Shown here: positions 49,394 through 50,689 of the stretch, in pieces
Position numbering within the stretch: the stretch's first letter is position 1
How the letters are laid out: each line of letters starts with the position of its first letter
DNA from: Desulfovibrionales bacterium
GTDB lineage: Bacteria; Desulfobacterota; Desulfovibrionia; Desulfovibrionales; Desulfonatronaceae
Direction: 5' to 3'
Assembly (NCBI GenBank): GCA_007693505.1
Contig: REDL01000132.1
Coordinates: forward strand, 1 to 61,201
DNA length: 61,201 nucleotides
Program-made: the position numbers and the translations under genes
Notes under the pieces: model-generated
Databases searched by the model: none
What the model saw: only the letters and a program-made list of their open reading frames with translations
What the model was told of the DNA's origin: nothing

Positions 49394-49409
49394 CTGTTAC
49401 TGTTTCTGG

Positions 49410-49700
49410 CAAGAGGCGACCGTTGGGTAAGCGGTGGGAACATGTAATGTTATGCTCTTGGGAAAGGAGGCTTTTCCCACTGCTTGTCCAACGGTCGACG
49501 TACTTGGTACTAGGGCGGGAGATCGACTCAGTAGTCTCTGTCCCAGAGTCCACAGCGTCGTTGTTTCTGGCGTGACGGCGCAGCCTGTTTCCCCTCGGGG
49601 CCACCAAGCCCGCAATTGAGCTGATGGCGCGCCGCTCGTGACCGTTCCTTGGGAGCCCGAACAGTTGTTTGACCTAAACTCGCATTTACAAGGATGGGAG
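49410..49700 (+). ncRNA. Candidate bridge RNA of the IS110 element
   Basis: The left-end non-coding region is strongly structured. A 24-base arm at 49417-49440 pairs with 49474-49497 at 21 of 24 positions over a 33-base loop. A second hairpin runs from about 49513 to 49544 (GGG..GGAGA with TCTC..CCC and an internal loop), and CCCCTCGGGG occurs near 49592-49601. In the IS110 group, a non-coding RNA from this position carries target- and donor-binding loops that guide the recombinase. The position and multiple-stem structure fit; I could not decode the guide sequences. The ends are approximate. Confidence 0.55.
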
Positions 49701-49709
49701 AAGAGGAAC

Positions 49710-50666
49710 ATGCCTGAACCAATTCTAGTCGGTATTGACATTGCCAAAAGCACCTTCGACGCTGCTATCGGTCTTGGCGGCAACTCCGAGACGTTCGCCA
49801 ACGACGAGGCTGGACATGCCGCCTTTACCGTCAAGCTGGCAGTTCATTCCATCGACCTAATTGTCATGGAAGCCACAGGCGGGCTTGAACGTAACCTGGC
49901 TTGCACTCTGCAAGCGGATGGCTTCACAGTGGCAGTAGTCAATCCACGTCAAGTACGTGATTTCGCCAAGGCCATGGGGTATCTGGCCAAGACTGACCGT
50001 ATTGATGCCAAAGCGCTTGCTGAATTGGCCCAGGTTCTGGCACGCCACCTCGAACGTGATCGCTTCATCAAGGTCTTGCCTACTCCGGAGCAGTATGCGT
50101 TGCAGGCGCTGGTGGCCCGGCGGCGACAGCTCGTCGCGTTGCGCGTTGCCGAACAACAACGTCTTTCGGTCAGTCATGCCGTCGCTCGCAAAAGCATTGA
50201 GGCATTGATTGAAGCCATCCGGACACAGATTGCCGAAGTCGAGGCTGAACTCGCCAAGCACATTGGCACACATCATGCCGACTTGGAGGATTTACTCGCC
50301 AGTACGCGTGGCATCGGCCCAACCACCGTCGCCACCCTGATCGCCGAGGTTCCGGAGTTAGGGCGGCTATCACGCCGTGAAATAAGCGCTTTGATTGGTG
50401 TTGCGCCTTTCAATCGCGATTCCGGCCAGATGCGTGGCAAACGAACTATCTTTGGCGGACGCGCCCAAGTTCGCCGTGCACTTTACATGGCAGTGCTCGT
50501 GGCTATTCGCTTTAACCCTGTAATCAAAGAGTTTTACAATCGTCTTGTCGCCGCAGGAAAACCCAAAAAGGTGGCCATCGTTGCCAGCATGCGCAAGTTT
50601 ATCACCATCCTCAACGCCATGGTTAGAACTGGCACTTCATGGGACGACTCCCTTCATTCTGCTTGA
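49710..50666 (+). CDS. IS110-family transposase (recombinase)
   Basis: A 318-residue DEDD-type recombinase. The N-terminal RuvC-like domain starts [15 protein letters not shown] (Asp10), followed by VMEATGG (Glu) and [13 protein letters not shown] (Asp pair). The C-terminal Tnp20 domain contains [20 protein letters not shown] and [16 protein letters not shown], whose serine is the proposed second catalytic residue. The frame is intact and of normal length, so the element may be active. The start follows a GAGAAGAGG ribosome site; the frame is open a further 24 codons upstream into the leader. Confidence 0.93.
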
Positions 50667-50689
50667 CGAAAAAGACAGTTGCCTGGTTC

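Follow-up and report, generated by a model that had tools for sequence, protein, structure and literature searches.

A probable natural deletion junction at an IS110-group insertion sequence with a bridge RNA in its left end

Introduction

IS110-group elements carry a long non-coding left end, and where such an element lies between pieces of signalling genes, two questions arise: does the left end encode a bridge RNA (bRNA), and can the guides of that RNA account for both of the element's neighbours? In the published guide scheme (PMC11208160, PMC11208158), a left guide reads in the same sense as the DNA on the left, whereas a right guide is antisense to that on the right, with the core dinucleotide included. 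The window studied here is the whole stretch of 61,201 nucleotides of a Desulfovibrionales bacterium (genome G000, contig C67; the assembly comprises 3.94 Mb in 136 contigs). A sequence-only reading had proposed that its IS110 element carries a candidate bRNA, that the element interrupts a single signalling gene and that the target guide could be read directly from this copy. In this study, the element was compared with homologous loci and the flanks with the sole close relative available, a same-genus genome in one contig (G006).

Results

An intact recombinase within an element whose cores differ

The features of the locus are collected in Table 1.

Table 1. Coordinates in the window of the element, its RNA and guides, and the neighbouring gene remnants
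Feature	Position	Strand	Basis or remark
HD-GYP gene remnant, without N-terminal part	48699..49362	-	
Left target flank GGATTCC, in the HD-GYP gene (site A)	49356..49362	+	Aligned to G006 site A
IS110-group element including left core CT	49363..50681	+	About 1.32 kb; ends from relatives and limits of G006 homology
Left core CT followed by TGTATC, the right-donor (RD) sequence	49363..49370	+	Common to relatives
Long hairpin module, 5' of bRNA, optional among relatives	49417..49497	+	Arms 49417-49440/49474-49497
Bridge RNA (bRNA), guide-bearing part	49556..49709	+	Covariation in 22 left ends; covariance model match
Target-binding loop and outer stem (49573-49585 with 49626-49638)	49573..49638	+	12 pairs, 9 changed on both sides
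Left target guide (LTG) GTTTCCC-CT	49587..49595	+	Alignment with L017, L118, L009
Right target guide (RTG) GCAATTG-AG	49612..49620	+	Predicted target CT-CAATTGC
Donor-binding loop, stems 49644-49649/49704-49709 and 49656-49658/49696-49698	49644..49709	+	
Left donor guide (LDG) ACAGTTG-TT	49661..49669	+	Same sense as right-end ACAGTTG
Right donor guide (RDG) TTTACAAG	49685..49692	+	Antisense to left-end start CTTGTA
IS110 recombinase, 318 aa, DEDD and S intact	49710..50666	+	Pfam, NCBIfam, residue alignment
Right end, closing with left-donor (LD) sequence ACAGTTG (50675-50681)	50667..50681	+	
Right core CC	50682..50683	+	Same CC at G006 site B
Right flank TGGTT, in the PAS histidine-kinase gene (site B)	50684..50688	+	Aligned to G006 site B
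PAS histidine-kinase gene remnant, without C-terminal part	50684..51632	-	G006 counterpart 784 aa

The recombinase is intact and retains its catalytic residues, as had been claimed. The open reading frame at 49710-50666 has both domains of the IS110 family, the RuvC-like DEDD domain PF01548 (3.8e-23) and the Tnp domain PF02371 with its serine (6.5e-20), and it scores 233 bits against NCBIfam NF033542, 'IS110 family RNA-guided transposase' (cutoff 140). The aligned catalytic residues are D10, E54, D96, D99 and S238; those of IS621 (PMC11208158) are D11, E60, D102, D105 and S241.

The ends of the element were placed from its relatives. Of 68 loci entered, 55 were kept on the basis of a plus-strand tblastn match (E 1e-10), with L048-L051, L086-L088, L091, L092, L094-L096 and L098 lost, and 50 of the 55 had a match to the right-end pattern while five had none. 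Left ends in the relatives read CT-TGTATC/G and right ends ACAGTTG (or ACAGCCG or ACAGTCG) followed by the core, and therefore the window element spans 49363 to 50681 and its right core is CC. The element placed earlier at 49395-50685 is real, with its left end 32 bp further left than proposed and its right end at 50681. The right core is CT in 48 of the 50 relatives (16 of the 48 being copies or fragments of one planctomycete element), the exceptions being CA in L047 and TA in L036, a doubtful match. The window copy has CT on the left and CC on the right; we read these unlike cores as damage to the right junction of this copy, the lineage being IS110 by protein and bRNA. Such a copy may be hard to excise.

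With a left end of 347 nt (49363-49709) and a right end of 15 nt (50667-50681), the element has the long-left, short-right layout of the IS110 group. It does not fit the IS1111 group, in which the RNA lies in a long right end, as judged from end lengths and RNA side in a definition that also names subterminal inverted repeats of 7-17 bp. One full copy of the element was found in the assembly, and a protein search (E 0.001) recovered no second recombinase copy there.

Relatives of the recombinase were found at 46 loci in a search of one genome per species (84,980 species), the best at 81% protein identity. Among 395 sampled genomes of the phylum, 68, the window genome included, had a match at E 0.001 or better, and the nearest other was 69% identical. 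At the DNA level, 100 related genomes gave matches of 26-42 bp in three and none in the other 97, and no near-identical copy was present among them. From this distribution, the element was probably acquired horizontally. A scan of viral contigs gave 28 pattern matches with no relative among them, and each of 25 phage records was below 60% identity.

A covarying RNA structure directly upstream of the recombinase gene

The proposal of an IS110 bridge RNA in the left end is strongly supported by the location, the covarying structure and guides that occur in the expected places and senses. The guide-bearing part comprises the 154 nt directly 5' of the start codon and was aligned with 21 homologous left ends, giving with the window the 22 sequences of alignment A1. 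In the consensus, the target loop is enclosed by an outer stem of 12 pairs. There are also a central hairpin of three pairs and a stem for the donor loop, the 3' strand of which extends to the start codon. RNAalifold proposed 28 pairs, 24 of which were counted, the four within the donor guides being left out. Pairing is possible in 96.8% of 526 cells versus 80.8% in shuffled alignments (0/500 as high), and at most in 49.6% when the structure is slid along the alignment. Compensatory cells, changed on both sides, number 97 versus 30.8, and the covariation score is 0.514 versus 0.195 (0/500 as high in each case). The excess is only modest for pairs with a change on both sides (13 versus 10.7; 31/500 reach this) and for further pair types (36 versus 32.1; 20/500), and all these shuffle controls are inflated by relatedness. 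The folding energy of the single sequence is unremarkable (z +0.40; 131/200 shuffles as good), and the evidence for the bRNA is therefore its covariation. The structure is thus conserved among homologous left ends, and no long non-coding stretch occupies the 15-nt right end, where it might have lain instead.

A covariance model built from homologous left ends had been suggested as a check. The model made from A1 matched at full length in 13 of 18 sources other than the window (E <1e-4, 25.7-77.3 bits), two of these, L020 and L022, being copies of one planctomycete element. The window itself, a training sequence, is matched at 49555-49711 with 145.7 bits, and L030 gave a weak partial match (E 0.19). 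There was no match in L002, L012, L129 or L130; L002 holds a left-end stub only, L012 starts too near the gene, and the last two are G006 chromosome. Rfam at gathering thresholds returned 0 matches in the window. A promoter and terminator scan of 49300-49760 as linear DNA, which is blind to a promoter formed only in the circle, also found none.

The fold first noted in this left end was a 24-bp (21 matched) hairpin. The hairpin is real, with arms of 24 nt that are 88% complementary (21 paired), and the folding of 49400-49555 beats that of shuffled sequences (z -3.74; 2/200 as good), but the hairpin lies 5' of the bRNA, in a module that relatives may lack, and carries no guides. It was rejected as the bRNA itself since 5 of 14 folded elements (L011, L114, L118, L121 and L015) hold just 24-30 nt between the left tip and the bRNA, which leaves no room for the hairpin, and yet keep the bRNA. 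The module at 49363-49555 has counterparts in L006, L019 and L116, where a long multi-stem fold is closed by CTGTGGA...TCCACAG. A role of this left-tip module as a shield against read-through transcription is possible.

Guides predict the flanks of related elements

The donor guides agree with the element's own ends when compared by eye: ACAGTTG of the LDG is identical to the LD sequence, and ACAAG of the RDG pairs with CTTGT. Within A1, ACAGTT of the LDG is invariant and its last G is conserved in at least 90%.

The right target guide was assessed in 24 of 42 relatives; those dropped were L007 and L085 (bRNA the same as in L006 and L009), 13 more copies of the planctomycete element, L115 and L038 (right end not used) and L044 (truncated). 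With G-U pairs allowed, the RTG pairs with a mean of 4.75 of the five bases of the right target (RT): 19 relatives reach 5 and 23 of the 24 at least 4, L010 alone being lower at 3. If G-U pairs are not counted, the average is 4.58, and all but two of the 24 relatives reach 4 (L006 has 3 and L010 has 2). Shuffled pairings gave a mean of 2.14 and a maximum of 3.04 in 5000 shuffles, and when guides and targets of different relatives were mismatched, 11.8% of pairs reached at least 4 and 2.0% reached 5. L120, which the anchor pattern missed, has a 5/5 right match by eye. L117 and L118 are 97% identical over 1,165 bases; one base of their RTG differs, and the matching target base differs too.

For the left target (LT), L017, L118 and L009 each match their LTG at 7/7 (L009 with one wobble), and L017 also matches at 5/5 on the right. 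Its target was first taken by eye for a tRNA gene, a reading dropped after ARAGORN found 0 genes in the interrupted locus. Over 17 of the 24 relatives the LTG-LT mean is 5.41/7 versus 4.74 shuffled (p 0.001), a rough result because the register was allowed to slide and three of the elements, L010, L011 and L015, had a mis-set zone.

The element stands in place of 7 kb present in a close relative

Rather than one broken signalling gene, the flanks of the element belong to two genes, an HD-GYP gene on the left and a PAS histidine-kinase gene on the right, whose break points in G006 are separated by 6,976 bp on the same strand. The HD-GYP flank aligns with G006 at 84% identity and the alignment stops at window position 49362, while the PAS flank aligns at 81% and begins at 50682; in both cases the query continued into the element. 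Since homology of the PAS flank starts at 50682, the CC at 50682-50683 belongs to site-B homology. The intervening G006 segment encodes the remainder of the PAS histidine kinase (784 aa in full), one LuxR-like response regulator and a further pair of histidine kinases, as well as the start of the 287-aa HD-GYP gene, these names being taken from reading the sequences. An orthologous copy of the segment was not found in the window's assembly with a 7,011-bp query, for which 40 of 100 first-look candidates were scored. The search returned 26 short matches (67-91% identity), of which the longest spans 495 bp at 67%; matches of this kind would be expected from shared kinase domains.

As no orthologous copy of the segment was found here and the break points fall at the cores, the element stands in its place, to the base. 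Loss in this genome is more likely than gain in G006, judging from one close relative, because the G006 genes are whole and both genes in the window are cut. The right-hand neighbour of the element is thus probably not that of its first insertion place. As a separate observation, no stop codon closes the reading frame of the HD-GYP remnant where it runs into the left end on the antisense strand (48699-49607, minus strand), and the frame could be a fusion that starts inside the element.

The window copy as an exception to the agreement of guides and flanks

Complementarity of two loop segments to both flanks across a shared dinucleotide had been expected. The left flank GGATTCC agrees with the LTG at 4/7, under the relatives' mean of 5.4, and the cores are unlike (CT and CC). 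Two registers were looked at for the right flank: beside the CC core, TGGTT pairs with the RTG at 2/5 by Watson-Crick rules and reaches 5/5 only with three G-U pairs, and in the CT register (core 50683-50684) it reaches 2/5 even with G-U. A 5/5 fit with G-U occurs at 0.5-0.7% of window positions per register; the wobble fit of the right flank may be meaningful, but it is weak. Reading the target guide from the two flanks of this copy, as had been proposed, was therefore rejected: with flanks that derive from two sites, the direct read-out does not come out cleanly. Site A of G006 has an LT allele matching the LTG at 3/7, the core TT and an RT, CAGTT, that pairs at 5/5 with one G-U, while site B has the RT TGGTC (4/5 with wobble, of which 1 Watson-Crick) and matches at 3/7 on the left.

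Elsewhere in this genome, the element was found only as a left-end stub of 110 bp with one mismatch (C65:107280-107389; L002:1484-1593), between a TtcA-like gene and rpoZ, both named by reading. It runs from the left core to the equivalent of window position 49472 (GGAGG-CT) and continues into CAATTG. Its right flank, CT-CAATTG, is exactly the target that the RTG predicts (5/5 Watson-Crick), and its left flank TTTACAC matches at 4/7 in the CT register. The simplest reading is that the stub was once a full insertion whose interior was lost, from a CT at the long hairpin's tip as far as the right core. In G006, about 34 kb (C1:3133507-3167227; L129/L130) lie between the genes that flank the stub here. 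A second deletion made by the element was considered for this place and rejected: 18.5 kb of the ~34 kb were searched in this genome (40 of 127 first-look candidates scored), and since parts of them occur elsewhere, a single deletion does not describe the difference, whose history is mixed.

Discussion

We consider it probable, at roughly three chances in four, that the window holds an IS110-group insertion sequence at a natural deletion junction, formed when the element inserted at site A and about 7 kb beside it were later lost. The left end would provide the bRNA and the same element its recombinase. Read against the published mechanism, the sequence suggests that the element would leave in circular form and enter sites that suit both LTG and RTG, the first loop of the bRNA reading the target and the second the element's own joined ends. 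Joining 50663-50681 to 49363-49372 in the circle would create a promoter at the junction of right and left ends (TTGACG, 17 nt, TATCTT; by eye). Entry would have been into the HD-GYP gene at site A, with the left target GGATTCC-CT and an original right target that was probably CAGTT-like, as G006 still has. The later loss would have extended from the right core to site B in the adjoining PAS kinase gene, with LT(A)-CT-[IS]-CC-RT(B) as its outcome. We infer this order of events, and likewise the part of the recombinase as maker of the deletion.

The loss could have come about by two routes that involve the element's own activity: the recombinase may directly join the right end with a near-cognate site, or a second insertion may occur at site B and be followed by loss of the intervening segment. 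PMC11208160 reports that deletions and inversions arise in vivo, though rarely, between insertion sites of IS621, and by analogy with these a recombinase-linked origin of the scar is reasonable. The IS621 deletions resemble the scar in that they occur between sites which the same bRNA reads at least partly; they were rare events in an assay, whereas the window holds a natural scar whose mechanism would have to be reconstructed from sequence. That the bRNA itself guided the deletion, with the right end recombining with a near-cognate site 7 kb off whose RT, TGGTT, is read through G-U pairs, is plausible, though short of probable. Had it happened so, the event would have taken away three whole signalling genes together with portions of two others, and locked the element in place with mismatched cores.

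A different history, which we regard as conceivable though short of probable, starts from copies inserted in direct repeat at sites A and B, between which homologous recombination deleted the 7 kb together with one copy. This would yield just the arrangement that is seen, precise at either core, and if G-U is allowed the RTG can pair with RT(A) as well as with RT(B). It would, however, require the element to have used site B as a target despite its CC core, its poor left target and the need for three G-U pairs. The present sequence would be the same from this history and from a deletion made directly by the recombinase.

The deletion may also have been illegitimate, through microhomology or a replication error, ending by chance at the right core, but we think this unlikely. 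In its favour, little sequence is common to the element's right end and site B at the junction, and the genome's other copy has lost its interior too, from the tip of the long hairpin. Chance accounts poorly, however, for a breakpoint exactly at the end of ACAGTTG and for a new flank whose G-U-assisted 5/5 match to the RTG is as infrequent in the window as given above.

Improbable too is an assembly artefact, in which the organism has the 7 kb and the draft lost them through a false join at the element. Repeats do cause such joins, and this draft is in 136 contigs; yet the assembly is given as 98.46% complete, the 7 kb were not found as a separate contig, and, since a single full element was found, there is no visible second copy for an assembler to cross. 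Least credible, and very improbable, is a simple insertion into one signalling gene of which the PAS and HD-GYP halves were parts: the flank frames would join in frame, by eye, if the core were the CT at 50683-50684, but not with the core at 50682-50683 where the relatives' ends place it; the halves belong to separate, longer genes of the same orientation in G006, with the whole 6,976 bp between their break points; the last PAS domain is cut mid-way (by eye); and right core and right target misfit, unlike those of nearly all relatives.

The ends of IS621, CTTGTAT on the left and ACAGT-like on the right, are similar to those of the window element. The two also share (PMC11208160 and PMC11208158 for IS621) the recombinase domains, the DEDD and S residues and a bRNA in the left end before the coding sequence, as well as the order of target loop and donor loop, the sense left and antisense right guides and the left CT core. 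The proteins are only distantly similar (phmmer 3.3e-31), and the best solved relative of the window recombinase by protein alignment is that of ISCro4 (PDB 9t56; phmmer 1.2e-33). Guides differ between IS621 and the window element, the right core is CC in the window copy, and five post-core bases pair with the RTG in the window element's relatives, whereas the RTG of IS621 comprises four bases with the core. The window element, unlike IS621, has an extra 193-nt stretch with the long hairpin between left tip and bRNA. Closer to it are the IS110 relatives in Dechloromonas sp. SSD3 (L006 and L007; 81% protein identity), which have the LTG stretch CTGTTTCCCCTCGGGG, near-identical donor guides and the same type of hairpin module, but differ in the RTG, GTGTGTG, in right cores of CT and in right flanks that start with CAC. 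The element is thus of a kind already known, an IS110-group element with readable guides from outside the well-studied enterobacterial ones.

It is important to note what this copy adds to what guides can tell. Prediction of the right flank from the right guide of the bRNA is good enough to reveal a copy in which that flank was probably swapped. If the guided deletion is true, deletions made by IS110 elements could be recognised in any genome by a right flank that does not match the RTG, or by unlike cores at the two ends. An RNA-guided deletion would also be natural evidence of chromosome remodelling by IS110 recombinases beyond simple insertion, with a bearing on the side effects of bridge-recombinase tools. 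No natural IS110 deletion scar was found among the listed titles and abstract openings of the bridge RNA and IS110 literature, although an earlier description is quite possible; the passage on adjacent deletions in PMC1525189 concerns ISRm22, given in that part of the paper as IS4 family.

Two further observations concern other members of this set. At L008:1775-1811, the left end begins with 17 bases that are present twice, 20 bp apart, possibly from a nested insertion at an earlier end. Planctomycetes bacterium SV_7m_r has 14 full copies of one IS110 element and 2 truncated ones (L020-L029, L031, L032, L039 and L043-L045), and in 11 of the 14 the right flank starts with CCCGC, which fits the element's own RTG, GTGCGGG.
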